Origin: Halalkalirubrum salinum
GTDB lineage: Archaea; Halobacteriota; Halobacteria; Halobacteriales; Haloferacaceae
Assembly: GCF_005543295.1 (NCBI RefSeq)
Contig: NZ_SRSG01000012.1
Location: 1 to 42,716 of the forward strand
Direction of reading: 5' to 3'
DNA: 42,716 bases
The notes beneath the pieces were generated by a model, which did not search any database, was not told the origin of the DNA, and was given only the letters and a program-made list of their open reading frames with translations. This document shows positions 1,671-25,579 of this stretch, piece by piece. A program made the position numbers and the translations under genes. Numbering within the stretch: the first letter of the stretch is position 1; each line of letters starts with the position of its first letter.

Positions 1671-1676
1671 TTATTC
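1671..1676 (+). promoter_or_regulatory. TATA box of the RadA-like/PolB2 cassette
   Basis: TTATTC is centred 26-27 bases before the ATG at 1700. This supports that start over an upstream one at 1601, because a start at 1601 would put the promoter inside the gene. Confidence 0.45.
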
Positions 1677-1699
1677 AGCACGTCTGTCTCTTTCGAAGT

Positions 1700-2642: not shown

Positions 2643-2651
2643 TCGGGTCTC

Positions 2652-4751: not shown

Positions 4752-4803
4752 TGACGCACCATGTCCGGAAGTATATGTATCCCGCCATCCGTACTCTCAA
4801 GTG

Positions 4804-5886
4804 ATGCTTCGGGACGCACTCTCGGCACCCATTCGCGGCCGAGATTCGTTCGGGACGACGGTGATCGGCAGTGTGCTCGTGGCGATCGGTATCGTGCTTG
4901 CGATCGCATGGATGGCCGCGGCGGCCGTTGTGCCGTTCATCGCGGTGATTGCGCTCCCGATTGTCGCGTTTCCGATTCTCGTCAGCCGAGGGTACCGGCT
5001 CCGCGTCATCAACGACAATATGCAGAATCGTCCCGAAACACCGTCGTTTGTCGGATGGGGTGGGCTCGCACGGGGTGGGCTCGGGTCAATTGTGTTGTCG
5101 GGGTTGTACCTGCTTCCCCTCGCCGCATTTACGCTGTTTGCTGGTATCCCCATTGTAACATACGCGATCTTCGGGTCTGCATCGAATCCGACAGGGCGGC
5201 TACTTGCGACGATCGCCGCTGCGCTCGGTGGGCTGTTCATGATCGGCTATCTGCTCGTGTACGCGTATATTCGGCCGGCAGCCGAGACCGTCTTCGCCTC
5301 GACAGGTCGGATCAGCGCGGCGGTGTCACCAAAACGTGTGCTCTCGGTGGCGCTCACCGGACGGTTCACGACAGCCTGGATCGTTGCTGTTGGCGTGTTT
5401 CTCACCGGGACGATCGTCGGCATCCTGACGTTTCCGTTGCTTGTCGGCACCGTCGTGTTGTTTCTCACCGGCACCGTCGTCGCGGCACTGATCGGGTCGG
5501 GCGCATCGACAGCCGCCACGCCGGCGACAGCCGCAGGAGGTGGCACGTCCGAGGAGCCAACCAGGCCACAGCCGGACCGATCGCCAGCGCCGATCACGAC
5601 CACCCCAACTGTCCTTCCTGACGGAGACTGGCGGCCCACGGAGGCACCAGCCGACGTACAAGTTGGCCGATCGGCGCCACTGACCGAAAATGACCCTCTG
5701 GCTGTGTTCGAGCCGGCAACGCTGATTGATCCCGAGCAGCCGTCCAGGGAGGTCGGATTTCAATGGGGGCAGATAGAAGACGACCGCGGATACGAGCATC
5801 TCGAAGATGATCGCGGACACAACCGCCTCGAAGACGACAGCGGCCGCGACCACCTCAAAGTCGATCGAACCGAAGCAGACGGGTAA
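4804..5886 (+). CDS. DUF4013-like multi-spanning membrane protein
   Basis: A 360-residue membrane protein of unknown function. The N-terminal two thirds contain several hydrophobic spans (about 18-58, 85-145 and 170-235). The segment RGYRLRVINDNMQNRPETPS followed by a Trp/Gly-rich stretch is typical of DUF4013 proteins as I know them. The C-terminal 110-120 residues are hydrophilic, Pro/Thr-rich and then acidic, ending in imperfect copies of a LEDDRG unit. The gene starts 52 bases after polB2 on the same strand and may be co-transcribed, but a functional link is not shown. A GTG directly before the ATG (4801) is an alternative start; the open frame further upstream overlaps polB2 and was rejected. 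Confidence 0.75.
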   Translation: MLRDALSAPIRGRDSFGTTVIGSVLVAIGIVLAIAWMAAAAVVPFIAVIALPIVAFPILVSRGYRLRVINDNMQNRPETPSFVGWGGLARGGLGSIVLSGLYLLPLAAFTLFAGIPIVTYAIFGSASNPTGRLLATIAAALGGLFMIGYLLVYAYIRPAAETVFASTGRISAAVSPKRVLSVALTGRFTTAWIVAVGVFLTGTIVGILTFPLLVGTVVLFLTGTVVAALIGSGASTAATPATAAGGGTSEEPTRPQPDRSPAPITTTPTVLPDGDWRPTEAPADVQVGRSAPLTENDPLAVFEPATLIDPEQPSREVGFQWGQIEDDRGYEHLEDDRGHNRLEDDSGRDHLKVDRTEADG

Positions 5887-5941
5887 CTGTTCTCGTGGCT
5901 GCGCGCAATCAACTGTGCGAACCGAAGCCACAGAGACAACG

Positions 5942-5948
5942 GTTTAAT
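5942..5948 (+). promoter_or_regulatory. TATA box of pelota
   Basis: GTTTAAT is centred about 26 bases before the ATG at 5971, consistent with a leaderless transcript. Confidence 0.45.
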
Positions 5949-5970
5949 CCCGGCAGCCAAAGCGATCCGT

Positions 5971-7038
5971 ATGCGCATCACGAGCCGCGGTCGTGGCGAG
6001 GAAGGCACTGAGCGAATCACGCTCGTGCCCGAAACCGTCGACGATCTCTGGCACCTTTCGCACGTGTTAGAGCCCGGCGACCGCATTTCGGGAGACACGA
6101 CCCGGCGGATCCAACGTGACGACGACCACATGCGTGACACCGGCGGCCAGCGCGAGCCAATGTCCGTCACGATCGAGGTCGAAGATACCGAGTTCGCGCG
6201 ATTTGCGAACCGCCTGCGTGTCGGCGGGCTCATCGTCGATTGCTCCAGAGAGGACCAACTCGGCCACCATCACACCCTCAACGTCGAGGAGCGCGAAGAG
6301 ATCACGATCGAGAAGCACTTCAAACCCGATCAGATCGAACGCCTTGAGGAGGCCGAAGAAACCGCGGACAATCCCGACGTTGCGATCGCGACCGTCGAGG
6401 AGGGCGAAGCGTACGTCCATCTCGTCAAAGAGTACGGAACCGAGGAATACGCCTCAATCACCCGGCCAACGGGCAAAGGCGAGTACGCCCGCCCGCGATC
6501 GGAGCTGTTCGGCGAACTCGCCTCGGCGCTGTCGCATCTGGATCCCGACGCAATCGTACTCGCCGGGCCGGGGTTCACCAAACAGGACGCCCGCGACTAT
6601 ATCGAAGAGAACGCCCGTGAGTTGACCGATCGACTCACCGTCGTTGACACGTCGAGCGCAGGCGATCGCGGGGTCCATGAGGTACTCAAACGCGGGGCAG
6701 TCGACGAGATCCAGGCTGAAACGCGGATCGCCCGCGAGGCCGAACTTATCGACGAACTGACTCGCGAGATTGCCCAGGGCGCGAAGGCGGCCTACGGCAT
6801 TGACGCGGTCAAAGAGGCCGCAGAGTTTGGGGCCGTCGAAACGCTGTTGCTCGTGGACGATCGACTGAGACAGGAACGACAGGGCGACGGCGACTGGAAT
6901 ATTGACGTCAACGAGATTATTGAGACAGTCGAACAGCAGGGCGGTGACGTGACCGTCTTCTCTGGCGAATTTGCGCCGGGCCAACAGCTCAGGAACCTCG
7001 GCGGAATTGCCGCAATCCTTCGATACAGACTCCAGTGA
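5971..7038 (+). CDS. pelA: Pelota/Dom34 mRNA surveillance protein
   Basis: Archaeal Pelota, 355 residues and full length. It mimics eRF1 and enters the A site of stalled ribosomes with aEF1A; together with ABCE1 it splits them (no-go and non-stop rescue). Three domains are apparent: an Lsm-like N domain (about 1-130, starting [12 protein letters not shown]), a central domain (about 131-260) without the GGQ hydrolysis motif of release factors, and an eRF1-type C domain ending in GELYVNE-like folds near residues 290-355 ([20 protein letters not shown]). A TATA box supports the ATG at 5971. The next gene begins 10 bases downstream. Confidence 0.93.
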
Positions 7039-7048
7039 GACAGCGACG

Positions 7049-7612
7049 ATGACAAACTCAACACCACGTGACGATCGCTCCGGCGACGACACGACAGAGG
7101 ATAGTTGGATCACTGACGACGATATGCCCACCGAAGCAGAACTGTGGGAGCGACGAGCTGGCAACGACCCAGCACCACCGACGGAGGATCCCGATTCGTC
7201 ATCCGAAGACGGCCCACTCTCGTTGACCGGCCGGATGGAACGCTGGCTCGAATACCTGTTCAACAGCGGCGTCGAGCTCTCATTTTTGGGCTCGTTCGGG
7301 CTGTTGATCCTGTTTTTCACCCCGCCGCTGTTGTCGGTTGACGGGATTTCGTTTTCCGGCCTGGTGGCGATCGCCTCGGGATCGACGTGGCTCGGACTCT
7401 TCCGGGGCGGCTACATTGATGTCGGAGAGTTTCCGGGATATGGGAACTTCGCGAGCGCGCCAGTCCGGTTTGCCGTATATAATGTTGCGCTCGTTGGCGG
7501 GACCTATGCGGGTGCGTACTGGTGGGACGCACAGTCGTCGCTCCTATTTGCGATCGTGTTTCCAGCGGTCATCACTGGAGTCGTGATTGCGTCTGTTCCG
7601 CGGCTCACGTGA
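7049..7612 (+). CDS. Haloarchaeal membrane protein, unknown function
   Basis: A 187-residue protein. The first 60 residues are hydrophilic, acidic and Ser/Asp-rich. Three or four hydrophobic helices follow (about 75-100, 105-125, 140-160 and 165-185). It contains no motif I recognise. The ATG at 7049 lies 10 bases after pelota's stop, so the two are probably co-transcribed. The longer frame starting at 6971 overlaps pelota and was rejected. Function is unknown. Confidence 0.7.
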   Translation: MTNSTPRDDRSGDDTTEDSWITDDDMPTEAELWERRAGNDPAPPTEDPDSSSEDGPLSLTGRMERWLEYLFNSGVELSFLGSFGLLILFFTPPLLSVDGISFSGLVAIASGSTWLGLFRGGYIDVGEFPGYGNFASAPVRFAVYNVALVGGTYAGAYWWDAQSSLLFAIVFPAVITGVVIASVPRLT

Positions 7613-7618
7613 TCGCGG

Positions 7619-7855
7619 TCACCGGTGCGTATACAAAAGCGGATTGCCGTCTTCGCTGGTGCTTACACACAGGTCCATTACTTCCGAGAGCGAGAGGCTC
7701 GTTGGGTCCTGCTTGCAGACGATGAGATAATCGAACGGATCGCCGCAGGCCGGACAGGCGATCGCCGTCGTGTTCTGGTAGGTCGCCATCATCTCGTTTT
7801 TCTCCCGCGGCGTGAGGTAGCTCACCAGTTCGTCGGGGGTGTCCATTTCCTCCAT
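7619..7855 (-). CDS. Small conserved zinc-ribbon-like protein
   Basis: A 78-residue protein with one CxxC knuckle followed by a third cysteine (CPACGDPFDYLIVC, about residues 38-51), which suggests a metal-binding turn. The N-terminal part is acidic and helical (DELVSYLTPREKNEMMATYQ). I recognise it only as the sort of small haloarchaeal protein sometimes labelled a 'flagella cluster' or DUF protein, which is weak evidence. The start at 7855 was chosen because the 35 residues upstream in the open frame look non-coding; a second ATG lies at 7846. It converges with the pelota-linked membrane gene. Confidence 0.65.
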   Translation of the reverse strand: MEEMDTPDELVSYLTPREKNEMMATYQNTTAIACPACGDPFDYLIVCKQDPTSLSLSEVMDLCVSTSEDGNPLLYTHR

Positions 7856-8019
7856 GACACTCGAAAGCTCTCTCCGAACAATCAAAAGCGTTCGGCCCCC
7901 AACAGCATGCTCAAAACACCCGACCAACAACAGCGCACGGCAAACCATCGGCCCCGACAATTCACCCTGTGCCGTTACCTGTCGGGGTGTTTATTCGCTC
8001 GGGGTGGCTACCTGCGCCC

Positions 8020-8295
8020 GTGTCCGATCGCCGAAAACGCTGTACTGCCTGCGGGGAGTCGATCCCTGCGTCTGCGAAGATCTGTCAACACTGCAAGTCG
8101 GTCCAGCCGTCGAACCTCTTGTTGTACGGCGCAATTTTACTTGGTGTGTTTTGTCTCCTCATTGGCGTCCCGATCGCGCTGTTTGCGGTTGGACTCGGCC
8201 GGCTGGTTGGGTTTCTCGTCGCCATATTCGGGCTAGCACTGATTTTCGGCGGGTACACAGCCTATCTCGATCGGACCGCAGGCCGCGAATTATAA
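8020..8295 (+). CDS. Zinc-ribbon membrane protein
   Basis: A 91-residue protein with an N-terminal zinc ribbon, C-x2-C-x10-C-x2-C (residues about 8-25), followed by two hydrophobic helices (about 32-55 and 58-78) and a short charged tail. This is the layout of double-zinc-ribbon or 'hydrophobic tail' proteins of unknown role. I chose the GTG at 8020 because a TATA-like TTTATTCG at 7990-7997 lies about 27 bases upstream; an ATG at 7969 would add 17 residues of poor quality. The gene converges with mptE. Confidence 0.65.
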   Translation: MSDRRKRCTACGESIPASAKICQHCKSVQPSNLLLYGAILLGVFCLLIGVPIALFAVGLGRLVGFLVAIFGLALIFGGYTAYLDRTAGREL

Positions 8296-8319
8296 CGGAC
8301 CGAAAACGGGCACTGGCAA

Positions 8320-9000
8320 TCAGTCGATCGGCTCGATCGACGCTCGCCGTCCGTCGAGTACCCCAAACCGATCGCCGCGCCGCTTTTCGAGCCAGCCGAG
8401 CAGCCGTTCGGCCCACCGGAGCTTCTGGGCTTTCATCGGATCGACGTCGGGATCGTCGAAATCCCAGCCGACGAACGTGAGCCGATCAGCCCCGAATGCG
8501 TCGGCGAGAAACGCCGCGCGATCGCCGTCGGTGAAGCCTCCGAAGTTGTACACACCCGTCGTGGGTTCTGCCTGTGTCGTTGCAAGGACGTTTGCTGGCG
8601 TCGCCTCTGGAAACCACGAGCGTACCGTCGGGATGTTGTCGCCGTGAGCGTGTGCGGCGACGATCGTTCCCGCGTGAGTCAGTGCCGCGGCGGTATCGTT
8701 GTTCTTGTCGAGGTCAGTGACCATCAGGTCGACCTCGTAGCCGGCCGCACGAACCACGTCAGTAGCCGTGGAGGCGGCGATAACGGCATCGGCGTCAGCC
8801 ACACGATCGACCGAAGACGAAAGCGACGGGGCAGCGCCGACGATCGCAACGCGCGCGCCGTCGAGCCAGGAGAGTCGATCGTGGTCGAACTCAGTCGCAA
8901 ACGTCGCGGCGACGTCACGCGCTCTCTCGTCGGCCGATCGATCGAACCCAAAGTCTTCGAGGATGAGTTCGTAGACTGGTTCCCACTCGTCGAACTGCAT
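8320..9000 (-). CDS. mptE: 6-hydroxymethyl-7,8-dihydropterin pyrophosphokinase, MptE type
   Basis: A 226-residue DUF115/MptE-family protein. It activates 6-hydroxymethyl-7,8-dihydropterin with ATP to give the diphosphate used in folate and methanopterin synthesis, as the archaeal replacement for FolK. Supporting segments are ARVAIVGAAPSLSSSVDRV (about 49-67), a region rich in acidic metal ligands (VTDLDKNND, about 94-102), AHAHGDN (about 115-121) and the C-terminal VGWDFDDPDVDPMKAQKLRW. Its ATG lies two bases after the folP stop codon, so the two consecutive pathway steps are encoded in one operon. Confidence 0.88.
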   Translation of the reverse strand: MQFDEWEPVYELILEDFGFDRSADERARDVAATFATEFDHDRLSWLDGARVAIVGAAPSLSSSVDRVADADAVIAASTATDVVRAAGYEVDLMVTDLDKNNDTAAALTHAGTIVAAHAHGDNIPTVRSWFPEATPANVLATTQAEPTTGVYNFGGFTDGDRAAFLADAFGADRLTFVGWDFDDPDVDPMKAQKLRWAERLLGWLEKRRGDRFGVLDGRRASIEPID

Positions 9001-9002
9001 CG

Positions 9003-10148
9003 TTACTCGAACTGTGCGGCGAGCCGAGTGAGTAGTCCTGCCGCCGGATTCGTGTCCTCGATTGCTCCGGCTAGCGATTGAATCGCCCCAGGCGTCCCGA
9101 ACAAAAGCGCTGCGTCGGTTCGATCGCCGGCGACAAACCGAACCGCAGTTCCCGTCGTGGCCGCCGAAAGCTCGTCGCGCGTCTCGGGCGAAAATCCGGA
9201 GAGCTCGAAGACGCGGGTTACCGTGTCTGCGGCAGCGTTCGGATCGCCGCCGAGACGATCGAGGTGTCTGTTTGCCTCGCGGGTCGTCGTCACGTCGAGC
9301 TCTTCAATCGTCCCCTCGTCGCTGGCCGTTCGCGTCCGATTGCGGGCGAACTCCGCGCCGATCAACGCGGCGTCGCGGGTCTCACGAACGTCGTGGGTTC
9401 TGATGATGTGTGCGCCCCGCTCGACGGCCATCGACGTCGCCGCCAGCGAGACCGCAAGCGCCTCCTCGGTGTCGCGGCCGGCGACGCTTCGGAGGAAGTT
9501 CTTGCGGTTGATCGAGACGAGGATCGGCTGGCCGTAGCCGCGGAACTCTCGCAGCCGCCGAAATGTCTCGCGGTCGTCCTCGATCGTCTTCGCCTCGCTC
9601 CAGCCGCCGAAGGCCGGATCAACGATCGTCTTGTCGGTGAGCCCGTTCAACGACAGGGCCTCGTAGATGTCGTCGACATCTTCGACCGCCCCGGGCCGTT
9701 CGAGATCGGGCGGGGAGGCCATCTTCGCGACGGCGACGTCGTACTCGCGGCAGACCTCGGGCATCTTCGGATCTGCAAAGCCGCAGATGTCGTTTACCAT
9801 GTCAAATCCTCGCGAGAGTGCCTCTTCGGCGACCTCGTGGTACCGGGTTTCGATCGAAAAAATCGCATCCCCAGAGACGCTTTCGATCGTCTCGATCGCC
9901 GTGTCGAGGCGATCAAGCTCGCCCTCTGCAGAGAGCACCTCGAACTTCTTGTTGGCGGACTCAAGTCCCACGTCGACGATATCCGCGCCCTCGTCGATCA
10001 GCTCGCGATCGACGTATTCAGCAGCCTCCCCGGCACTGTTGAAAACGCTCGGTTTGTACGGCGATTCCTGTGACACATTCAACACACCCATGATTCGAGG
10101 CGGGTGATCGTCACCGATTCCCAACCCTGCCGCATCCACGTTTCGCAT
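9003..10148 (-). CDS. folP: Dihydropteroate synthase
   Basis: A 381-residue protein with a pterin-binding TIM barrel. It condenses the pterin diphosphate made by MptE with p-aminobenzoate to form dihydropteroate. Typical segments are IMGVLNVSQESPYK (about 19-32), EGADIVDVGLESANK, FSIETRYHEVAEEAL, DMVNDICGFADPKMP, a Lys-type segment AVAKMASPPD and GAHIIRTHDVRETRDA near the barrel's end. It is about 100 residues longer than bacterial FolP; the extra C-terminal domain (about 270-381) has no motif I recognise. The start at 10148 was chosen because the 30 upstream residues lack conservation-like composition. It is first gene of the folP-mptE operon and is divergent from the 10278 gene. Confidence 0.88.
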   Translation of the reverse strand: MRNVDAAGLGIGDDHPPRIMGVLNVSQESPYKPSVFNSAGEAAEYVDRELIDEGADIVDVGLESANKKFEVLSAEGELDRLDTAIETIESVSGDAIFSIETRYHEVAEEALSRGFDMVNDICGFADPKMPEVCREYDVAVAKMASPPDLERPGAVEDVDDIYEALSLNGLTDKTIVDPAFGGWSEAKTIEDDRETFRRLREFRGYGQPILVSINRKNFLRSVAGRDTEEALAVSLAATSMAVERGAHIIRTHDVRETRDAALIGAEFARNRTRTASDEGTIEELDVTTTREANRHLDRLGGDPNAAADTVTRVFELSGFSPETRDELSAATTGTAVRFVAGDRTDAALLFGTPGAIQSLAGAIEDTNPAAGLLTRLAAQFE

Positions 10149-10247
10149 GTATCGTAATTTAGGTGATACAGACACATAGACCGTCCGATCGGGCACCCGT
10201 TTGGCAGTGTCACATGCGGTCAATCTCGACATAGCCAACCCACACGG

Positions 10248-10256
10248 CTTTTATTT
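10248..10256 (+). promoter_or_regulatory. TATA box of the TrmJ/TmcA operon
   Basis: CTTTTATTT lies about 26 bases before the ATG at 10278. It is in the 129-base gap shared with the divergent folP gene. Confidence 0.5.
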
Positions 10257-10277
10257 GCAGACGGACAAACTCCGAGT

Positions 10278-10880
10278 ATGAGCAAGGTGAGCGTCGGGCT
10301 TCGCGGGTGGCGTTTCGAGGAAGCCGAGATATTCGACGAGGAGGGCGAGTTCAAACCCTTGGCGGACATTCCCCAGGACCCACGTCAGCGGCTGATCCGG
10401 CTGACAACGCTTCTGAACAAGCCGTGTGACGTTTGTTATCTGATTCACGGCGAGGAGGAGATCAAACGCTGCAACGAGGCCGCGATCGTCTATGGCGAAC
10501 CGATGGGAGAGGTGGTTCTCTGTGAGCCACACGAACGTGAGTTTCTCTACTGGTTCCAAGAAGCCGGCGGCCGCGAGTACAAAGGAAGCGAGGAGCTCGC
10601 CGACGCCTTCCACGAGTGGTACGCCGCAGGCAACAGTGCTCCGGAGGGGTACGGGTCCGTCGAACACGTCGATACCGACCCAGCGGGCGTTCCCGAACCG
10701 CCGAGCCCAGAGGAGATGGAAGCACGGCTCAACGAGGGATTCGAACCCGAGCGCATCGACATTCGCGAGTACATGAGCGACGAAGAGCGCGCGAAAAGAG
10801 ACATGCGCAAGGAGGATGCAGTGACCGACGAGGACCTCGCAGAACTCGATCTCACAGCCGACTATCCAACGAAGCAATGA
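10278..10880 (+). CDS. Cys-containing haloarchaeal protein of the tRNA-modification operon
   Basis: A 200-residue acidic protein without a family I can name. A possible metal site is spread over residues about 50-83: C-x2-C (CDVC), a later Cys (KRC) and CEPH. The rest is rich in Glu/Asp, with a helical C-terminus. It is the first gene of an operon in which its stop overlaps the TrmJ-like start (ATGA), followed by tmcA and a DUF456 gene. That arrangement suggests, but does not prove, a role in RNA modification or translation. The start is supported by a TATA box at 10248. Confidence 0.72.
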   Translation: MSKVSVGLRGWRFEEAEIFDEEGEFKPLADIPQDPRQRLIRLTTLLNKPCDVCYLIHGEEEIKRCNEAAIVYGEPMGEVVLCEPHEREFLYWFQEAGGREYKGSEELADAFHEWYAAGNSAPEGYGSVEHVDTDPAGVPEPPSPEEMEARLNEGFEPERIDIREYMSDEERAKRDMRKEDAVTDEDLAELDLTADYPTKQ

Positions 10881-11671
10881 GCGAGGGTGCCCGACCGAAG
10901 CCCGCAGTGGTCGTCGTCGACGCACAGACACCGGGAAACATCGGGACGATCGCCCGCGCGATGAAGAACTTTGGGCTTTCGGAGCTGTTGCTCGTCGACC
11001 CGCCAGCGCTTGACCCGGACGGCGAAGCCTACGGATTCGCCGGCCACGCCCGCGAGGACGTCCTCCCGAACGCCAAGGAAGTCACATTTGAGTCGGTCGT
11101 CGAGAACTACCACACGATCGGCTGCACAGCGATCACCGGCGAGGACAGCCGCAGGCACATCCGGTATCCGTTCAAGACGCCGGTCGAACTCAAAGAAGAC
11201 CTGCGGACCCTCGACGCCGAAACTGCGCTGGTTTTTGGTCGAGAGGGAATCGGGCTAACGAACGATGAGCTGGCGCAGATCGACCAGATCTGTTCGATCC
11301 CCGCAAGCCAGGAATATCCCGTCCTGAATCTCGGACAAGCCGCGACTGTCCTGTTGTACGAGCTTCGGGAGCTGACCGTCGAGGAGACACAGCTTCCCGA
11401 CGCGGCCCAATCACGTGCAGAGGAAGCCGATATCGAGCGGTTCTACGGCTACCTATCGGCGTTTCTGGACGCACAGGGGTACAACGATCGCAAGCGCGAA
11501 AAGACAACCCGACTCTTCCGGCGGCTCATCGCCAGAGCCCATCCCACCGATCGCGAGGTCCATACCCTCATGGGCGTGTTCCGCCGGGCGAACGCACAGC
11601 TCGACCATCGCCGCGAACTGCTCGAAGCGTATGATGAGCCAGACAAACTGAGCAGCCAGACAGATCCCTGA
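10877..11671 (+). CDS. trmJ: SpoU-family tRNA 2'-O-methyltransferase, TrmJ type
   Basis: A 264-residue SPOUT methyltransferase. It transfers a methyl group from S-adenosylmethionine to a ribose 2'-OH; archaeal TrmJ modifies position 32 of tRNA. All three SpoU motifs are visible: motif 1 TPGNIGTIARAMKNFG (about 17-32), motif 2 ALVFGREGIGLTNDEL (about 118-133) and motif 3 IPASQEYPVLNLGQAATVL (about 140-158). These form the trefoil-knot cofactor site. The C-terminal 90 residues are helical, as in TrmJ. The start overlaps the upstream stop (ATGA), and tmcA begins one base after this stop. The family call is firm; the exact tRNA position is inferred. Confidence 0.88.
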   Translation: MSEGARPKPAVVVVDAQTPGNIGTIARAMKNFGLSELLLVDPPALDPDGEAYGFAGHAREDVLPNAKEVTFESVVENYHTIGCTAITGEDSRRHIRYPFKTPVELKEDLRTLDAETALVFGREGIGLTNDELAQIDQICSIPASQEYPVLNLGQAATVLLYELRELTVEETQLPDAAQSRAEEADIERFYGYLSAFLDAQGYNDRKREKTTRLFRRLIARAHPTDREVHTLMGVFRRANAQLDHRRELLEAYDEPDKLSSQTDP

Positions 11672-11672
11672 G

Positions 11673-13991
11673 ATGGCTACCACTACCGATCGGCCTGCGC
11701 TTCGATCGCTCGTTGAATCGCTCCACGCGGAGGCGACTCGGACGAATGAGCGACGACTGCTTGTCCTCTGTGGAGACCGATCGGATTGTATCGACGCTGC
11801 CTACACCGCAATTGAGGCGGCTGGCGCGGCCAAATCGGACGTCACACTCGTTACGACCGAAGAGGGATTCAGATACGATCGCGTCCACCCCGATCGATCG
11901 ACCCAGTTACTCGGCCAGACCCGCGAGATCGTCGTCCTCGACTGTCACGATCGGTGGTCACCGAACACGATCGGCCGAACCGTGGGCGCAGTTGACGGTG
12001 GCGGGCTGTACGTGCTGTTGACACCTCGGTTTTCGGACTGGTCGAACGAGACCTCTGCGCTCGCCGCAGGACTCACCGCGCCGCCGTACGAACTCGCAGC
12101 TGTGGGCGACAGAACCCAATCGCGGGTGATCGAGACGGTTCGCACCCATCCGGGAGTTGCGATCGTCCAGTTGGACGAATTAAATACGCCGGGTTCAACA
12201 GACGAGGGTGGTAGCGACGAGTCTGGGGAGGCCTCGACGATCCACCGCGACGGCTTGACTGGTGGGAGCGGGGTCCCGTCGCCGTCTCCGCCGGGCGTAC
12301 CGCGAGGCAGTTCGTTCCCCGACGTCGTGTACGAGACCTGCGCAACACGCGACCAACGCCGGGCGGTTCGATCGCTCGAACGCCTCAGCGGTCCAGGAAA
12401 CGCCTGCGTGCTCGAGGCCGATCGCGGCCGCGGGAAGTCGACAGCCGCTGGACTCGCCGCGGGGGTATTCGCCGCAGACGGTCGAACCGTACAGGTGACT
12501 GCCCCTGATCGATCGAACGCAGATACCCTCCTGGATCGCGCTCAAGAAACCCTCTCAGCTCTCGGCGTCGACTACGAGACAGCAGACGCCGATCGCCAGT
12601 CGGTGATCGACTGTGGTGGCGATCGCGGGGTAATTCAGTTCGATCGACCGACCGATGCGATCGAACGGGCGGCCGAAGCAGACGTGCTCCTCGTCGAAGA
12701 GGCTGCAGGACTCCCCGTCCGAGTGTTGTCGGCGCTGTGTACTGCCGACTCGATCGGCTTTCTCACGACGATTCGTGGCTACGAAGGGGCTGGCCGCGGG
12801 TTTACGGTTCGGTTCCGCGATCGCCTCGACGAGAGCGCCTATGCGGTCAGGACCGTCGAACTCACGGAGCCGATTCGCTACGCGGCCGGGGATCCGATCG
12901 AATCCTGGAGCTTTCGGACGCTGTGTCTCGATGCGAGTCCGACGCCCGGGTCGATCGTCGCTGGGACCGATCCAACGGATGCAACGTACGAACAGCTCAC
13001 GCAGGCGCAGTTGGCGAGCGACGAACGGCTGCTCCGGCAGACATTTGGGCTGCTCGTCGACGCACACTACCGGACGACTCCTGATGACCTCGGGCGGATG
13101 CTCGACGGGCCGAACCTGTCGGTTCGGGCGTTCACGATCGACGGCCACGTCGCCGCGGTTGCACTGCTCGCCGCCGAGGGTGGACTCGACGAGGAAACAA
13201 GAGAGCAGATCTACCGTGGCGAGCGAACCCGCGGCCACCTCGTTCCAGAGCTCCTGACAAGCCAGCTTCGAGACGAGGAAGCAGGCGTTCCGACGAGCCA
13301 GCGGATCGTCCGCATCGCGACACACGCCCAACTCCGGGGTGAGGGCTTTGGCTCTCGGCTGCTTTCGGCGATCGCCAGGGAGTTCGAATCCCGCGTCGAC
13401 TACCTTGCGGTGGCTTATGGCGCAACACCGCGGCTGCTGCGCTTTTGGATCAAGAACGGCTACCGGACAGTCTACCTCTCTGCGACCGAACACGACACTA
13501 GCGGCGAGCACTCGGCAATTATGCTCCGACCGTGTTCGAGCGCCGGAGAGGCGTTGGCCGATCGCCACAGCGAGTGGTTCACGAGTCAGCTCCAAAGTAG
13601 TCTTTCAGGGCCGCTTTCGACAGTTGACCCGGACGTAGTTCGCTGGACGCTCCGGTCGGTCGACGGTTCGATCGACCCTGAACTTACAGATCGTGAGGAA
13701 CGATTCGTCGCTGGCATGGCTTTCGGTCCAGGAATGTACGGGGCAGGGCCGACGGGCTTTGAGACGCTCGCGCTGGCCGAACTCGCGGACCCCAGCGGCG
13801 ATCTGGATCCCCGTGAGGAGCGACTGCTCGTCACAGTGGTCTTACAGGGCCGATCGTGGGAAGCGGCGAGTGAGCTGCTTGAGTACAACAGCCCCGGTCA
13901 CTGCATGCGATCGCTCGGTCGGGCCTACAGGCCGATCGCCGAGCGCTTCGGAGGCGAACTAACGCGAGCAGAACGGAGGCGATACGAATGA
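11673..13991 (+). CDS. tmcA: tRNA cytidine acetyltransferase TmcA
   Basis: A 772-residue TmcA/Nat10-family enzyme. It makes N4-acetylcytidine in RNA from acetyl-CoA with ATP hydrolysis. Layout: an N-terminal DUF1726-like domain (about 20-175), a low-complexity Gly/Ser/Pro linker (about 172-215), a helicase-like ATPase with Walker A DRGRGKST (about 249-256) and DEAD-like VLLVEEAAGLP, then a GNAT domain (about 440-600) whose acetyl-CoA loop is LRGEGFGSRL, and a C-terminal tRNA-binding tail. The linker is unusual. It is translationally coupled on both sides, to the TrmJ-like methylase and the DUF456 gene, defining a tRNA-modification operon. CGATCG is very dense here. Confidence 0.92.
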   Translation: MATTTDRPALRSLVESLHAEATRTNERRLLVLCGDRSDCIDAAYTAIEAAGAAKSDVTLVTTEEGFRYDRVHPDRSTQLLGQTREIVVLDCHDRWSPNTIGRTVGAVDGGGLYVLLTPRFSDWSNETSALAAGLTAPPYELAAVGDRTQSRVIETVRTHPGVAIVQLDELNTPGSTDEGGSDESGEASTIHRDGLTGGSGVPSPSPPGVPRGSSFPDVVYETCATRDQRRAVRSLERLSGPGNACVLEADRGRGKSTAAGLAAGVFAADGRTVQVTAPDRSNADTLLDRAQETLSALGVDYETADADRQSVIDCGGDRGVIQFDRPTDAIERAAEADVLLVEEAAGLPVRVLSALCTADSIGFLTTIRGYEGAGRGFTVRFRDRLDESAYAVRTVELTEPIRYAAGDPIESWSFRTLCLDASPTPGSIVAGTDPTDATYEQLTQAQLASDERLLRQTFGLLVDAHYRTTPDDLGRMLDGPNLSVRAFTIDGHVAAVALLAAEGGLDEETREQIYRGERTRGHLVPELLTSQLRDEEAGVPTSQRIVRIATHAQLRGEGFGSRLLSAIAREFESRVDYLAVAYGATPRLLRFWIKNGYRTVYLSATEHDTSGEHSAIMLRPCSSAGEALADRHSEWFTSQLQSSLSGPLSTVDPDVVRWTLRSVDGSIDPELTDREERFVAGMAFGPGMYGAGPTGFETLALAELADPSGDLDPREERLLVTVVLQGRSWEAASELLEYNSPGHCMRSLGRAYRPIAERFGGELTRAERRRYE

Positions 13992-14500
13992 GTGGGTCGC
14001 TTGTCGTCGGAACCGTCGGAGGGATCGACCTCGTCCTTGCGGCTGCGATCGCGCTACTCGCGTTGGGCGTCGTCGGCAGCGTGGTACCCCTGTTGCCCTC
14101 TGGGTTACTCTCGCTGAGTGGACTCCTCGTCTACTGGATCTGGGGCAACGGGCTGGTTCATCCGGTCGTGTTGGCGGCGCTTGCGATCGCTGCGCTCCTC
14201 GCTGCGGCACTTGAGCATCTCGGCGGGCCACTCGCCGCGAAGGCTGGTGGCGCGTCGAATCAGGTGATGGCTGCGGCGGCGATCGCCGGCTTCTTGCTGT
14301 TTTTTGTCGCCGGGCCGATCGGCGTTATTCTCGGTGTGGTGGGGACTGTCTTCGGGATCGAACTGTCTCGGGGCACGGCGATCGAAACCGCGGCGAAACG
14401 AGGCGTCTATACCGGCCTCGGCATCCTTGCGTCGACAGTCATGCAACTGCTCATGACCGCAGCGATCCTTCTAGGCTTCCTTCTCGCCGTCGTTATCTGA
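13988..14500 (+). CDS. DUF456 family membrane protein
   Basis: A 170-residue hydrophobic protein with about five membrane spans. Gly-rich features of DUF456 are visible: GVVGSVVPLLPSGLLSLSG (about 28-46), a central LAAKAGGASNQVMAAAA segment and a glycine-zipper-like stretch GPIGVILGVVGTVFGIEL (about 104-121). Function in this family is unknown. Its ATG overlaps the tmcA stop (ATGA), so it is coupled to the tRNA-modification operon. It converges with gltX across a 49-base gap. Confidence 0.8.
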   Translation: MSGSLVVGTVGGIDLVLAAAIALLALGVVGSVVPLLPSGLLSLSGLLVYWIWGNGLVHPVVLAALAIAALLAAALEHLGGPLAAKAGGASNQVMAAAAIAGFLLFFVAGPIGVILGVVGTVFGIELSRGTAIETAAKRGVYTGLGILASTVMQLLMTAAILLGFLLAVVI

Positions 14501-14549
14501 TCGCCGCTCTCCTCAGCGGATTATCACTTTTATCACCGGACCACCACGT

Positions 14550-16280
14550 TCAGCGGTGTGCGAAGTACGCGACTGATTCACGATCGGCGTGCTTGTCGAC
14601 ACGGGCAAAGCCGATCCGCTCGAACTGCACCACGTCGTCGATCGCGGTCTCCGCGAAGCCGGGCTCTGCGGCCCCGCGGACGTCCCCGTCGATCGTCCGC
14701 ATCCGGACAGGGATCGACTCATTCGCGGGGACCCAGTGGATTACGTCGACGCCTTCCTCACGAACCGCCGAGATATCGTCGCCAACGTACTCGAAGCCAG
14801 CATCGGTGTGGCGAACACAGCCGTATCCTTTCAGCCAGACCCGATCGCCCACCGCAGGGAGGTCGTCAGGTTCGATGAGGACCGCGTCCTCGACCGGGAT
14901 CTCTCGGCGGCCGCGATCGTCGTGTTCTGGGTGTACCGGTGGCGTTCCGGCAGTCGGCGCGTCGCCACCGGGACCCTCGAGTATCGGTTTTTCGATGCAA
15001 TCGCGGACGAGGAAGTAGCGGTTCGCGTCGTCATCGATCAGCTCGCGGTTGTTCGCGTACACGGTCGACATCGACAGATCGACATCTGTCGTCGACATTC
15101 CCAGGCCGATCATCGCGTCGACGATCGCATCCCCGCGAATTCCGCGCCGACGAACCGACTGAATGGTGGGCGCGCGCGGATCGTCCCAGCCGTCGAGATC
15201 GCCCGCGTCAATTAGTTCCTTGATTGTCGAGGTCGAGGCCTTCACGTCGTACTCGTCGAGTTGGACGTGGCCCCAGTGGAGTACCTCTGGGTACTCCCAA
15301 TCGAAGTACTCGTAGAGGAACCGCTGGCGTTTCGCGGAGTCCTGGAGGTCAATGCCGCGGATGATATGAGTCACGCCAGTAAGATGATCGTCGATTCCCG
15401 ATTGGAAGTCGAGCATCGGCCAACAGCGGTACTCGGCGGCGGCTTCACGCGGATGGGGGGTGTCGATCATCCGGAAGGCGACCCAATCACGCAGTGCAGG
15501 ATTCTTGTGGGTGATGTCGGTTTTGACCCGGAGCACCATCTCGCCGGCGCTGTACTCGCCGTCGATCATCGCTTCGAACTCCGATCGCACAGTTTCGGGT
15601 GCTTTGTCACGATTTGGTGAGGGTTCACCGGCGTTTTTTAGCTCTGAAAACTCCTCGCCAGGGAGGTCGCAGGTGTAGGCGCCGCCTGCCTCAATGAGCT
15701 CGAAGGCGTGATCGTAGTACGTTTCGAGGCGATCGGAGGCTTTCAGAACCTCGTCGGGCTCGAATCCGAGATACTCAATGTCGTCTAAAATCCCGTCGTA
15801 GGCGTCGAGATCGGGGCGTTTTGTCTCCGGATCAGTGTCGTCGAACCGGACGATGAAGCGACCGTCGTAGCGCTGTTTGTACGTCCCGATGACAGACGGC
15901 ATCCGCGCGTGACCAAGGTGCCAGGGGCCGTTCGGGTTCGGCGCGGCCCGCATCGTCACCCCGTCGTATTCCGCGGCGTTTGGGAGGTCCGGAAGCGTAT
16001 GCTCGTCAGTCTTGGGTTCGGTGTCGAGTTCGGCCGCGAGATCGGCATCGAGTTCCTCCAGCCGTTCGCGGCGGGCCGTGGCATCCATCCCGGCAACCGC
16101 GCCGACGACCTGTCCGGCGATCTGTGGGATTTCGTTGCCGTGCGGGCGGAACTCGGGGTTCTCGCCCATGAGCGGCCCCATAATCGCACCCACGTCGGGA
16201 TCGCTGTCGTGTTTCAGTGCGTTAAACAGCGCGTGTTTTTCAGCCTCCGCTCGCACGCGCGCTTCGAGATCATCGTCCAT
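14550..16280 (-). CDS. gltX: Glutamyl-tRNA synthetase, archaeal type
   Basis: A 576-residue class I aminoacyl-tRNA synthetase of the archaeal/eukaryotic GluRS-GlnRS type. It charges tRNA with glutamate. In haloarchaea it is expected to be non-discriminating, with GatCAB converting Glu-tRNA(Gln), although those genes are not in this window. The HIGH signature is HLGH in PNPNGPWHLGHARMPS (about 113-128). The KMSKS counterpart is KASTSTIKEL. The C-terminal anticodon-binding domain is a beta barrel rather than the helical bacterial type (GDRVWLKGYGCVR). The N-terminal 100 residues are an archaeal helical extension. The start at 16280 matches that extension; the frame open to 16556 runs through the neighbouring gene. 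Confidence 0.93.
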   Translation of the reverse strand: MDDDLEARVRAEAEKHALFNALKHDSDPDVGAIMGPLMGENPEFRPHGNEIPQIAGQVVGAVAGMDATARRERLEELDADLAAELDTEPKTDEHTLPDLPNAAEYDGVTMRAAPNPNGPWHLGHARMPSVIGTYKQRYDGRFIVRFDDTDPETKRPDLDAYDGILDDIEYLGFEPDEVLKASDRLETYYDHAFELIEAGGAYTCDLPGEEFSELKNAGEPSPNRDKAPETVRSEFEAMIDGEYSAGEMVLRVKTDITHKNPALRDWVAFRMIDTPHPREAAAEYRCWPMLDFQSGIDDHLTGVTHIIRGIDLQDSAKRQRFLYEYFDWEYPEVLHWGHVQLDEYDVKASTSTIKELIDAGDLDGWDDPRAPTIQSVRRRGIRGDAIVDAMIGLGMSTTDVDLSMSTVYANNRELIDDDANRYFLVRDCIEKPILEGPGGDAPTAGTPPVHPEHDDRGRREIPVEDAVLIEPDDLPAVGDRVWLKGYGCVRHTDAGFEYVGDDISAVREEGVDVIHWVPANESIPVRMRTIDGDVRGAAEPGFAETAIDDVVQFERIGFARVDKHADRESVAYFAHR

Positions 16281-16347
16281 TACGCGGTCGTTCGACGGGC
16301 GAACGCAAAAACAGCGTGGATCGCCGCGTCGTGATGAGACTATGAGA

Positions 16348-16575
16348 CTATGAGTTATCCGGTTCTTCGTCGAACAATCCCAGATCCTCCGCCGCCAGAT
16401 CCGCGATGTGCTCTGTGATCGCCGGATCGACGACTGCGATCTGTTCGCCGTCGTGGGCGCGCTCGTTGTGCCGATCGAGCGTGTCCGCGAGTTCGGATAA
16501 CGGAACCCGAGTGTCAGTTCCGCACTCCTCACAGACGATCGGCACTTGCGGCTCATCGTCGGCTTGGGTTGTCAT
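16348..16575 (-). CDS. Small C2H2-like zinc-finger protein
   Basis: A 75-residue acidic protein with a probable zinc site, C-x2-C-x17-H-x4-H (CEECGT to HNERAH, residues about 15-42), resembling archaeal C2H2 fingers. The remaining residues are acidic and helical. It lies just upstream of gltX (67-base gap), so it may share a transcript with it. The start at 16575 (MTTQADDE) was preferred because the residues upstream do not look coding. Function unknown; nucleic-acid or protein binding is a guess. Confidence 0.68.
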   Translation of the reverse strand: MTTQADDEPQVPIVCEECGTDTRVPLSELADTLDRHNERAHDGEQIAVVDPAITEHIADLAAEDLGLFDEEPDNS

Positions 16576-16681
16576 TACGTGGGTATCTCGTGGGCGGCAG
16601 TAAAACAAAACCGGTTCGTCGAACCAATCACCAGAGTGTTCGATCCGGTTCGATGGGCGGGCACTTCCGTTTTATTGATGT

Positions 16682-18949
16682 TTACTGGAATGCGCCGCCG
16701 GCTTCGATCGGATCGTCTTCGACCTCACTTTGCTTGAACCGCTTTTCGATCTCCTCGTAGCGCCGTTTGGTCTCGTCGGTGACGCTCGGAACCACCTCGT
16801 CGAGCGCCTGCTCGAAGTGTGCCATCGTGACGCGGACGTTGCCGACTGATTCGTCAATCTCCTCGCGTGTCACACTGTTAATGAACTCCCGTGAAGCGGC
16901 CATCGAAGCCTCTCGACACAGCGCTTCGAGGTCCGCGCCAACGTAGCCGCTCGTGCGGCGCGCGAGCGCGTCGAGATCGACATCGTCTGCCAGCGGCTTG
17001 TGCTCGGTGTGGACGTCGAGGATCGCCCGCCGCGCCTCCTCGTCGGGCACCGGCACGTGGACGTGCCGATCGAGCCGACCCGGACGCAACAGCGCCGAGT
17101 CGATCAAATCGGGCCGGTTCGTCGTGGCGATCACGACAACGTCCTCGAGCGTCTCGAGGCCGTCGAGCTCGGTGAGCAGCTGGCTCACGACGCGCTCGCC
17201 AACGCCCGAGTCAGTGGAGCCGCTACCGCGCTCGGTGGCGATCGAGTCGATCTCGTCGAAGAAGACGATCGTCGGGGCGTTCTCTCTGGCCTTCGAGAAC
17301 ACCTCGCGGACGCCCTTCTCGGACTCGCCGACGAACTTGTTGAGCAGTTCAGGGCCCTTAATCGAGATGAAGTTCGACTCGCTCTCGTTTGCAACCGCCT
17401 TCGCGAGCAGTGTCTTCCCCGTCCCCGGCGGCCCGTAGAGTAACACGCCCTTTGCGGACTCCATGTCCATCTGCTCGAACACTGCAGGGTACTCAAGCGG
17501 CCACTGGATCGTTTCGCGGAGCCGCTCTTTGGTGTCTTCGAGACCACCGACCTTCTCCCAGTTGACGTCTGGGACCTCGACGAAGACCTCCCGGAGCGCA
17601 GAAGGTTCGATTCCCTTCAGCGCAGCTTTGAAATCGTTCTCAGTGACCTGAATCGATTTGAGCACATCCGCGTCGATCTCGTCGCTTTCGAGGTCGAGCT
17701 GCGGGCGGATCCGTCGTAAGGCGTGCATCGCAGACTCTTTGGCCAGCGATTCGAGATCTGCGCCGACGAAGCCGTGGGTGTTCTCAGCGTACAGGTCGAG
17801 GTCGATTCCCTCCGCGAGCGGCATATTTCGGGTGTGGACCTGGAGAATCTCTTTTCGGCCATCGCGGTCCGGCACACCGATTTCGATCTCACGATCGAAG
17901 CGGCCGCCGCGGCGCAGCGCGGGGTCGATCGCGTCGACGCGGTTCGTTGCGCCGATTACGACCACCTGCCCACGCTCTTCGAGCCCATCCATCAAACTGA
18001 GCAGCTGTGCGACGACCCGGCGTTCGACGTCGCCGCCGGCCTCCTCACGCTTGGCGGCGATCGAGTCCAGTTCGTCCATGAAGATGATTGCCGGGGCCTC
18101 CTCTGAGGCTTCCTCGAAGACATCCCGAAGCTGCTCTTCGGACTCGCCGTAGTACTTCGACATGATCTCCGGGCCAGACACGGTGTGGAAAGAGGCGTCG
18201 ATCTCGTTTGCGACCGCTTTCGCGATCAGCGTCTTGCCGGTGCCGGGCGGCCCGTGGAGCAACACGCCCTTCGGCGGCTCGATCCCGAGACGCTTGAACA
18301 GCTCAGGGTGCCGCATGGGTAGTTCGATCATCTCACGGACCTGTTCGAGCTCGTCATCGAGTCCGCCAATGTCTTCGTAGGCAACGTCAGGCGATCCCGG
18401 TTCACGTTCTGATCCCGGCCCGCTCGATCGAATCTGTTCGGCGGGCTTTTCAGAGATCCGTACCTCCGTCTCGTCGGTCACCACAACAGTGCCGCTGGGA
18501 CTCGTTGAGGCGATCTTCAGCGGGACCGCCTGGCTCTGTCCGCCCATGAAGCCGAAGCCGAGCGGAAGCTGCACGTTTTGGCCCTTCGTGACGGGCTGGC
18601 CGCCCAGCTCACGCCGGATCAGCGAATCGATGTTGCCGCGGATGCCGAGCCGCTGTGGGAGTGCGATCGTCACGCTCTCGGCTCGCTTGACCTCGGCCTT
18701 CTCGACGGTTACCTTGTCGTCAATTCCGACGTTCGCCTCCTGGCGGAGCCGTCCGTCGATTCTGATCACGCCGGAGCCGTCGTCTTCGGGGTAGCCGGGC
18801 CACACGCGCGCGATTGCCGTACCCTCGGCGCCCTCGATCCGGATGAAGTCGCCACCGCTGAGGCCGAGCTCATCGGCTGCGAGGCGATCAACCGCGGCCA
18901 GACGGCGGTTCGCGTCCTTTTGTTTGAGCGGTTTGATTGTGAGTTTCAT
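16682..18949 (-). CDS. cdc48: Cdc48/VCP-type AAA+ ATPase
   Basis: A 755-residue archaeal Cdc48 (VAT-type) hexameric unfoldase, which unfolds proteins for the proteasome and for complex disassembly. The N domain (about 1-185) has a double-psi barrel ([19 protein letters not shown]). Two AAA modules follow, each with GPPGTGKT (near residues 233 and 506), Walker B (IIFMDELDS and IVFFDEIDS) and arginine fingers in the second region of homology ([26 protein letters not shown]). Both ATPase sites look intact. The C-terminal tail is short and acidic. The start overlaps the upstream Hsp20-like gene by 4 bases, so the pair is translationally coupled. Confidence 0.95.
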
Positions 18950-19194
18950 TTTGCCACCGTGATGGTGAGCACCCCATTTGCGATATCAACAGTTGCGTCA
19001 GGGCCGGGGAGCTCTAACTCCGTCTCAGTAACCTGATTGCCGTTGTCGATGACGACGATTGCAGTCGTGCCCACGATGTCAACGTCGATCGACGATTCTT
19101 CGACAGGTATGTCGGCCGCGAGGATCCATTCGTCACCGTACTCGTACTGACGAAGGAACTGCTCGTCGCGACCGGTTCGCTGCATTGAGTTCAT
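18946..19194 (-). CDS. Hsp20-like beta-sandwich protein
   Basis: An 82-residue protein composed almost entirely of beta strands ([35 protein letters not shown]). It resembles the alpha-crystallin core of Hsp20 but is much shorter, lacking the N-terminal arm and the IxI tail. The stop overlaps the cdc48 start by 4 bases, which makes a role as an adaptor or holdase for the Cdc48 unfoldase plausible; this is inference. Starts at 19194 (MNSMQR) and 19185 (MQRTGR) are both possible; a TATA box fits the first. Confidence 0.72.
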
Positions 19195-19216
19195 TACTAA
19201 CCCACAGTTAGTCTTC

Positions 19217-19226
19217 TAAGTATTTG
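19217..19226 (-). promoter_or_regulatory. TATA box of the Hsp20-like/cdc48 operon
   Basis: On the minus strand CAAATACTTA lies about 27 bases before the ATG at 19194, the usual leaderless spacing. Confidence 0.45.
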
Positions 19227-19330
19227 AACCTTTTGTGCAAAACCGCAATACGTGAGTGATTCTCGAACAAATCGATAGAATTGCGGTCCACACGACAAAC
19301 AATCCGCGATCGACACTCACGACGACCGAT

Positions 19331-19339
19331 GGTTTATGA
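19331..19339 (+). promoter_or_regulatory. TATA box of the hydrolase gene
   Basis: GGTTTATGA is centred about 28 bases before the ATG at 19363. A purine-rich GAGGAGAG also lies about 8 bases before the ATG, but the TATA position implies little or no leader. Confidence 0.4.
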
Positions 19340-19362
19340 CCTTCCTGTGAGGAGAGTATAGT

Positions 19363-20136
19363 ATGAAACGGGTCACACACCACGGACGCGAGACAGCCTA
19401 CCGTGTCTTTGATCGCGGGGCCGATGGTGCGACGGTGCTTTTCATTCACGGCAGCGGGGGAACAAGCGGCATCTGGAAGTCTCAACACCGGCTTGCGGAC
19501 GAACACCGAATCGTAACACTCGATCTGAGTGGCCACGCGAAAAGCGACGATGTCAATTCGGATCCGGGGTATGAGACACTCAGCGCGTATGTCGACGACG
19601 TGATCGCAGTCGCAGAGGCAACCGATACCGACACGGTCGTCGGACATTCGATGGGTGGTGCCGTGGCGCTTCAGGCCGTCCTTAATCGTGATCTCACCCC
19701 CGATCGGCTCGGACTGGTTGGAACGGGTGCACGCCTCGCAGTGCTAGAAGACCTCTTGGCCTGGCTCGAGACAGATTTCGATCGAGCGATCGAGTTCCTG
19801 CATAAACCCGATCGGCTCTTTCATGACCCCGATCCGCGCCTCGTTGAGCTCTCGCTCGCGGCGATTGACGATGTCGGACAGTCGGTAACTGCCCGGGATT
19901 TTCAGACGTGTCATAGCTTCGATGTTCGCGACTCGATCGACGAGATTACCGTGCCGACGCTTGCGATCGTCGGCGAGCACGACAAGCTCACCCCGCGGCG
20001 CTACCACGAGTACCTGGCCGACGAACTTCCGGACTGTCGACTCGCGATCGTCGAAGACGCCGCACATCTTGCGATGCTTGAACAGCCTCAGGCGTTCAAC
20101 GCTGCGCTATCGTCGTTCCTTTCGGCGGCTGATTGA
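19363..20136 (+). CDS. Alpha/beta-hydrolase
   Basis: A 257-residue single-domain alpha/beta-hydrolase. The oxyanion-hole loop is FIHGSGGTSG (about 28-37), the nucleophile elbow GHSMGG has its serine near residue 96, the acid is probably Asp in VGEHDKLTP (about 207), and the catalytic histidine lies in AAHLAMLEQP (about 235). The catalytic triad is therefore complete. Substrate cannot be read from the sequence; esterase, lactonase and epoxide- or haloalkane-hydrolase-like relatives share this layout. It is a single-gene unit, divergent from the Hsp20-like/cdc48 operon. Confidence 0.85.
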   Translation: MKRVTHHGRETAYRVFDRGADGATVLFIHGSGGTSGIWKSQHRLADEHRIVTLDLSGHAKSDDVNSDPGYETLSAYVDDVIAVAEATDTDTVVGHSMGGAVALQAVLNRDLTPDRLGLVGTGARLAVLEDLLAWLETDFDRAIEFLHKPDRLFHDPDPRLVELSLAAIDDVGQSVTARDFQTCHSFDVRDSIDEITVPTLAIVGEHDKLTPRRYHEYLADELPDCRLAIVEDAAHLAMLEQPQAFNAALSSFLSAAD

Positions 20137-20296
20137 GGCCTTACGTACGCATTCGCGACACCGGCTGTGATGGAATCGAATAGGCCAGTTTGATCCCTCG
20201 GGTCCATCGATCGTATGTTGATCCTTTCGACAGCACGGTGTGTTCTGCAGCGTGACGAGAATATACGAGTCGTCACGAATTCTCATTCGTCAACTG

Positions 20297-20317
20297 CCTC
20301 GGGGTCAAGCCCCGAGG
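20297..20317. repeat. Right-end hairpin of the TnpB element
   Basis: Perfect 8-bp stem with a 5-base loop. In complete elements this region overlaps the 3' end of tnpB and the reRNA/omegaRNA; here it has been brought close to the middle of tnpB by deletion. Confidence 0.75.
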
Positions 20318-20337
20318 CTTGTCAGTGAACTCCCGCT

Positions 20338-20973
20338 CTAACCGAGGAACGCTCCCGTCGAAGTGACAGCGACGTATCCATCCACGTTCAAGTCCACACC
20401 AAGAACCACTCCGTTCTCGGATTCTTCATCGCAAGAAGTGTCAACGTCTTTCTTCACAGCGACGTGGAGGTAGTACGTTCCGTCACGCTTGTGAAGCGTT
20501 GCTTCGGCTTTCTCCCATTCGTCAGTCCAGTAATCCTCGAAAGGCGTGCCTTCCTCGTTGACCGGCGTGACGTATTCTGCGGTCACGCGCTTGTCGGTCG
20601 TGGCGAGGGATACGTGGTCGTCGTTGTACGTGATAGTTCGACCGTTGTACACGACAACACTCCCTCGAAACTCGGGCTTGCTGGCTCGTTCACCGTCGAA
20701 CTTGCGATCTTTGCAGTTCCCGAGTGCGGTCGCCGCGAGGTTTCTCGCGGATTGGACGAGACTGGATTGCAGGGAAAGTTTCTCACGAACGTCAGAATAC
20801 GTCTCTTTGTGGAGCGTATTCTTGGTGTCCGTGATGTTGTAGGGGTTGTCGTCCCATCCGTGGTCAGCGACGTGTTGCGCCGCGTGTCGGAACTGCTCGA
20901 ACGTCTCGTCGAGGACTTCTACGTCCTCGTCGGAAACATCGAGTTTGACTTGGATGTTCCGAACAACCTCCAT
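20338..20973 (-). pseudogene. tnpB: TnpB (IS1341-type) nuclease, truncated
   Basis: Only 211 residues remain of a family that is normally about 400. The N-terminal part is present (MEVVRNIQVKLDVSDEDVEV, then a helical region and a beta-rich wedge). The frame stops just after the first RuvC motif (VVLGVDLNVDGYVAVTSTG), so the later RuvC acidic residues and the zinc finger are missing. TnpB is an RNA-guided nuclease that helps retain its element. This copy cannot cut DNA but could still bind guide RNA if expressed. The stop is followed almost at once by the element's right end, showing an internal deletion rather than a point mutation. Confidence 0.85.
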
Positions 20974-21073
20974 ACTTCATCAGCAAAGGTGAGACTATTT
21001 AAAACTACATATAGAGAGTGGGGAGTCAAGTTTGCTATCGAACGTGGTTTGTAAAGGATAGTGTCGGCTTCCT

Positions 21074-21094
21074 CCCCGAGATCAAGCCTCGGGG
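21074..21094. repeat. Left-end hairpin of the TnpB element
   Basis: CCCCGAG and CTCGGGG form a 7-bp stem with a 7-base loop about 100 bases before the tnpB start. This matches the left-end structure of haloarchaeal IS200/IS605 elements. Confidence 0.7.
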
Positions 21095-21112
21095 TATCCG
21101 CCTTGAATCTTG

Positions 21113-25554: not shown

Positions 25555-25579
25555 TACCTACACCCTCTACATCTAACGT

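Follow-up and report, generated by a model that had tools for sequence, protein, structure and literature searches.

Why is the palindrome CGATCG so dense at the start of tmcA, and does this density belong to the gene or to the genome around it? The original prediction counted eight sites in about 330 bases there, and our exact count is the same (Table 1). The sites lie at positions 11687, 11703, 11778, 11876, 11891, 11895, 11948, and 11968, with an overlapping pair at 11891 and 11895, and all 8 are kept in the sister species.

Density and spacing of CGATCG in the window and the genome

In the window, by which we mean the whole stretch of 42,716 bp that was analyzed (1..42716), CGATCG is the commonest hexamer. 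It occurs 197 times, compared with 54.4 ± 6.8 occurrences (maximum, 71) in dinucleotide-preserving shuffles. The predicted excess is thus far above chance, but the locus itself is unexceptional: tmcA as a whole carries 27 sites (11.7 per kb), and 8 sites per 328 bp are also reached in sampled contigs C5, C10, and C12, the last being the window's own. A local signal at tmcA was rejected because the same density occurs at other loci. A scan of the whole genome (3.416 Mb) revealed 15,984 sites, or 4.7/kb (∼1 per 200 bases). The tmcA cluster lies at the high end of a genome-wide distribution, and the true anomaly is the genome-wide density. Total counts given here are from whole-genome scans, k-mer statistics from a sample of ∼363 kb, and turnover from a 280-kb alignment.

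CGATCG had further been described as dense over the core genes (5.9 to 20 kb), thinner in polB2 (about six sites), and missing from a TnpB element and an IS5-like remnant. All of this agrees with our counts. The core block is dense (Table 1), the stretch between 4763 and 20118 is collinear with the sister species, the polymerase gene holds exactly six sites (2.9 per kb), and the window's site list places zero sites within the two transposase-like stretches found by similarity, the first of which is probably the predicted TnpB element. Density is 5.7/kb in DNA common to the sister species versus 3.2/kb in unshared DNA. Since shared DNA is denser and the transposase-like stretches carry no sites, CGATCG is usable, as had been suggested, as a marker of native versus acquired DNA in a statistical sense, and within the clade its density offers such a marker ready-made. 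One sampled region of this genome (L010; G000:C1:1-20000) has 1.2 sites per kb and 55% G+C, and it is likely an acquired region or part of a plasmid.

Table 1. Features of the window and their CGATCG content or similarity
Feature	Positions	Strand	Description
Family B DNA polymerase gene (polB2)	2652..4751	+	Pfam DNA_pol_B
Native core block	5900..20136	none	98 CGATCG, 6.9 per kb
CGATCG cluster at tmcA start	11673..12000	none	8 sites, exact count
tmcA, tRNA(Met) cytidine acetyltransferase	11673..13991	+	Pfam TmcA_N, NAT10_TcmA_helicase, GNAT
Transposase-like stretch	20288..21110	none	90% identical to Haloferax plasmid transposase region
Transposase-like stretch	25559..26452	none	83-86% identical to IS5/IS6-family transposase regions of haloarchaeal plasmids

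For the suggestion of a DNA-organizing signal, a defined spacing of the sites is not supported. Distances between sites (mean, 195; CV, 1.17) follow a nearly exponential distribution without periodic peaks, which speaks against a regularly spaced, chromosome-organizing device.

Composition, codon use, and distribution among haloarchaea

Can the codon, dinucleotide, and amino acid use of acidic, G+C-rich haloarchaeal proteins yield this count? The trinucleotides CGA, GAT, ATC, and TCG are frequent, and in Markov models, the check that had been proposed, the observed/expected (O/E) ratio of CGATCG remains above 1 but drops with the order of the model (3.45, 1.78, and 1.48 at orders 1, 2, and 3) in the ∼363-kb sample. 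Because the subwords of CGATCG are themselves raised, high-order models absorb part of the signal, and we therefore took as control 259 predicted genes whose synonymous codons had been shuffled gene by gene. Against this control, 1431 coding sites were observed versus 507 expected (2.82-fold; z = 49), with excess in all three reading frames (4.4-, 2.3-, and 3.8-fold), and intergenic DNA is nearly as dense as coding DNA (4.3/kb and 5.1/kb). CGATCG has the biggest excess among all hexamers, and GGATCC, AGATCT, and TGATCA show no enrichment in the same test. Third-position context effects do exist (in-frame CCATCG is strongly avoided, at 0.17), and ordinary haloarchaea reach 1.5 to 1.8 over codon shuffles, but the excess is restricted to one clade and the turnover pattern reported below is unique to CGATCG. 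Neither composition nor codon usage nor the GATC background of haloarchaea accounts for the full over-representation. Codon and dinucleotide use, named beforehand as an explanation that could undo the claim, accounts for a background of ∼1.5-fold; as the main cause it is refuted, and it is highly improbable as the source of the count.

The unit of enrichment is the hexamer CGATCG. The octamer of cyanobacterial HIP1, GCGATCGC, exceeds codon shuffles 2.76-fold, compared with 2.82-fold for the hexamer, and the most over-represented octamer by composition is TCGATCGA rather than GCGATCGC. The motif had been called HIP1-like, which is apt for an iterated palindrome in excess of Markov and codon models but not for its unit. 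As a separate observation, in-frame CCATCG occurs 40 times versus 229 expected in the coding regions of this genome, a codon-pair effect that is stronger here than in related genera.

How widely is the excess distributed? Across 151 genomes of the family, CGATCG ranges from ∼0.03 to 5 per kb. The three enriched genomes are this one (G000; 4.7/kb), a sister species (G001; 5.0/kb), and a sister genus (G008; 3.5/kb at 51% G+C), and other genera of the family have 0.03 to 3.0/kb. The nearest named genome, "Halophilic archaeon SHRA6," is identical to G001 over 5.3 kb. Relative to codon shuffles, the O/E ratio is 2.8 to 3.2 in this genus, 3.8 in G008, 1.1 to 1.8 in most haloarchaea, and 0.03 to 0.7 in several (∼0.5 in Halorientalis and Haloplanus; 0.03 in Haloferax). 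The proposed comparison with related genera thus limits the excess, among those sampled, to this genus and its sister genus. In a gltX tree, this genus (g1) and G008 (g8) are sisters (support, 100/96), and the next clade (Halonotius, G012, and G021) has no CGATCG enrichment. Since g1 and g8 are sisters, one gain suffices, and a single gain at their base would be the simplest history. Based on its G+C content and tree position, our guess is that G008 is Haloquadratum or a relative.

Some genera show the opposite tendency. CGATCG is avoided (0.46 to 0.56) in samples from Halorientalis (L063, L075, L095, L098, L099, and L108) and Haloplanus (L065 and L066), where GATC itself is not avoided (1.1 to 1.3), a pattern resembling CGATCG-specific restriction. 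GATC is nearly missing (0 to 0.7 per kb) from several haloarchaeal genera, in samples L060, L080, L091, L101, L111, L117, L123, and L125, in contrast to ∼10 per kb elsewhere; in Haloferax, GATC is at 0.12 of the codon-shuffle expectation.

Turnover of CGATCG between species

Are existing CGATCG sites kept, and are new ones favored? We aligned 280 kb of this genome with the sister species G001 (91.3% identical). CGATCG ranked 1st of 349 abundant hexamers in conservation (0.839 versus a mean of 0.70), and hexamers that match it in composition and contain two CpG were conserved at 0.68 to 0.75. In other haloarchaeal species pairs, CGATCG ranked 547th of 1527. Preservation between species above control words, a mark of highly iterated palindromes (HIPs), was thus found for CGATCG here and not in the control genera.

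Each single-base change that creates or destroys CGATCG was then compared with the same change in contexts differing by one base. Relative to these control contexts, losses were 0.47 (bootstrap interval, 0.41 to 0.52) and gains were 2.35 (2.10 to 2.64), while loss and gain ratios were near 1 for eight control palindromes and 1.08 and 1.08 for CGATCG in other genera. The bias of CGATCG was 5.0, and that of the runner-up among 630 hexamers was 2.1. A gain/loss ratio by itself merely restates the frequency excess; what is informative is that the fall and the rise are about equal (geometric mean of gain and loss ratios, 1.05; CI, 0.95 to 1.17). Neither extra creation nor protection alone can explain this, as creation alone leaves losses unchanged and protection alone leaves gains unchanged.

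At codon position 3, losses of 0.36 and gains of 2.24 were observed, in agreement with the 0.35 and 2.18 expected under a fixation bias of 1.83, and intergenic sites gave 0.61 and 2.63. At codon positions 1 and 2 (105 changes), the values were 0.81 and 3.31; the rise in gains exceeds the fall in losses, and a single fixation-bias number does not fit. All three positions and nearly all nine base changes lean toward CGATCG, transitions and transversions alike. When sites were grouped by their distance to the nearest conserved one, the fraction that was unshared followed no trend (0.15, 0.13, 0.18, 0.11, and 0.22). These data show a bias on the hexamer as a whole that keeps CGATCG in place, about halving losses and doubling gains, independently of the distance to other sites. 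A density-dependent function, such as a saturating repair signal, found no support and was rejected, since loss does not depend on the distance to the next site.

Methyltransferases, candidate mechanisms, and known palindromes

What process could impose such a bias? The original prediction proposed methylation-linked repair, as in Elhai's model of HIP1, which rests on GATC and CGATCG methyltransferases (PMC4390886). An orphan enzyme of this kind, together with methyl-directed mismatch repair, would create and keep CGATCG. Consistent with this, the core palindrome is shared with cyanobacterial HIP1, which is accompanied there by both enzymes (PMC4390886), GATC is over-represented in most haloarchaea and more so when a Dam-like orphan enzyme is present (PMC6471742), and this genome encodes a Dam-family enzyme (C55:2094-2882; TIGR00571). 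However, the Dam gene is missing from the denser sister species, for which we rejected it as the cause, and from G008: among the three enriched genomes, D12 (Dam) methyltransferases were found in G000 only. C5 methyltransferases were found in none of the three (0/3), so that the proposed search for a cognate enzyme leaves the sister species with neither type, and Dam-type enzymes also occur in genomes without CGATCG enrichment. Among N6 (N6_N4, N6_Mtase, and HsdM-type) and Eco57I-type enzymes, none is common to all three except the sole PF01555 enzyme, whose ortholog is also present in CGATCG-poor genomes (copies there are 58 to 61% identical). It is presumably the conserved CTAG orphan methyltransferase that has been reported from Halobacteria. 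As for restriction-modification, CGATCG is enriched and not avoided, and no methyltransferase of the tested families is shared. The motif also does not extend to an octamer, and loss is independent of other sites, whereas the HIP1 model predicts saturation near one site per kb (PMC4390886). The methylation link is thus not supported; a very diverged enzyme or one outside the tested families might still methylate the sites, and we regard this explanation as unlikely. In this genome, a Dam-family adenine methyltransferase gene at L025:1480-2451 lies near a helicase fragment and is missing from the sister species; it is probably accessory.

Two further explanations were weighed. One is a mutational or single-mismatch repair bias, for example, Vsr-like very-short-patch repair restoring C in CGATTG or CAATCG. 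The strongest single effect is indeed the A-to-G change at position 2 (CAATCG to CGATCG; gain, 0.47 versus 0.18 in control contexts), but the lean extends over all three positions and both substitution types, and the geometric mean of 1.05 (0.95 to 1.17) is not raised as motif-creating mutation alone predicts, which makes this bias improbable. Rather unlikely, too, is a DNA uptake or Chi-like recombination signal that spreads because DNA with the motif is transferred preferentially. This drive would produce a uniform gain/loss bias over substitution types, and unshared DNA does hold fewer sites. At one site per 200 bp, however, nearly every fragment has several sites, so that a drive on whole fragments should saturate, and there is no density dependence; moreover, a palindrome has no direction.

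The reading that we prefer, and in which our confidence is evenly balanced, is that CGATCG is a lineage-specific HIP of one haloarchaeal clade, kept by a fixation bias without methyltransferases of the cyanobacterial type. The bias would act at fixation, either as weak selection for the sites of a putative DNA-binding protein or as allele-biased repair or gene conversion among polyploid chromosome copies, in which a putative sequence-specific DNA-binding or repair protein would treat the CGATCG-bearing strand or allele differently. This factor would be independent of the GATC and CGATCG methyltransferases known from cyanobacteria. Haloarchaea are polyploid, and gene conversion among their chromosome copies is documented; allele-biased repair is therefore a plausible source of a bias that acts per site and independently of density. 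The gain/loss asymmetry fits both versions. We slightly favor biased repair or conversion because the effect is per site, without saturation with density and without preferred spacing.

How does CGATCG compare with known systems? Like HIP1 (GCGATCGC) and the alternate HIPs of cyanobacteria (Elhai 2015, PMC4390886), it is the top over-represented word of its genome, palindromic, and lineage specific, and HIP1 and the haloarchaeal repeat share the core CGATCG (PMC4390886). Unlike the octamer HIP1, it is a hexamer without preference for G..C flanks. Its density is 4.7/kb versus 0.3 to 2.7/kb for HIP1 in cyanobacteria, the order-0 O/E ratio of GCGATCGC is 18 here versus 55 to 228 in most cyanobacteria, and HIP1 is accompanied by GATC/CGATCG methyltransferases, whereas the enriched haloarchaeal genomes share none. 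CGATCG thus has the general features of HIPs and lacks two features of HIP1 proper, the octamer and the cognate methyltransferases. The haloarchaeal GATC excess associated with the Dam-like orphan methylase cHG W (Fullmer et al. 2019, PMC6471742) likewise concerns a GATC-containing word; that study counts GATC and makes no mention of CGATCG, and what we observe, in a single clade that lacks a conserved Dam gene, is an excess of the full hexamer over the GATC background. The DndCDEA-PbeABCD phosphorothioate system of haloarchaea also recognizes GATC, of which it modifies only 1 to 3% of sites (PMC6459918); a search of ten genomes, the three enriched ones among them, gave no match to DndC. DNA uptake sequences and Chi sites are likewise short over-represented words kept by a whole-word process, but unlike them CGATCG is palindromic. 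It is also several times denser than known uptake sequences. The closest parallel to our turnover test would be the work of Xu and co-workers (about 2018), who reportedly examined selection on HIP1 in cyanobacteria.

In the literature searched, with most subscription journals outside it, there was no report of a CGATCG excess in haloarchaea or other archaea, and we regard it as a HIP variant not described there. What HIP1 does in cyanobacteria is debated, and the most prominent model links it to methylation. This archaeal clade has the core palindrome of HIP1 and a substitution bias that can be measured, but its enriched genomes have no methyltransferase of the tested families in common apart from the PF01555 ortholog. 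It therefore separates HIPs from methylation and is a second, independent setting for the search for the recognizing factor.

Among 64 palindromes scanned for in 89 samples, CGATCG in G000, G001, and G008 was far ahead, and CTCGAG in Natrialbaceae came next. There, CTCGAG is ∼2.0- to 2.8-fold over codon shuffles, at 3 to 4.4 per kb (L067, L071, L072, L076, L081, L082, L105, L131, and G057, with L149 and L150). Over 51 kb, its losses are 0.39 of control and its gains are not raised (0.93). CTCGAG is possibly a second lineage-specific iterated palindrome, and we note it as a lead. It is conceivable, although we are doubtful, that haloarchaea carry a methylation-independent, sequence-specific repair or conversion machinery whose recognition word becomes an iterated palindrome that depends on lineage, CGATCG here and possibly CTCGAG in Natrialbaceae. 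In a 20-kb sample of another genome (L217; G037), GGATCC is 3.8-fold over codon shuffles, at 1.7 per kb.
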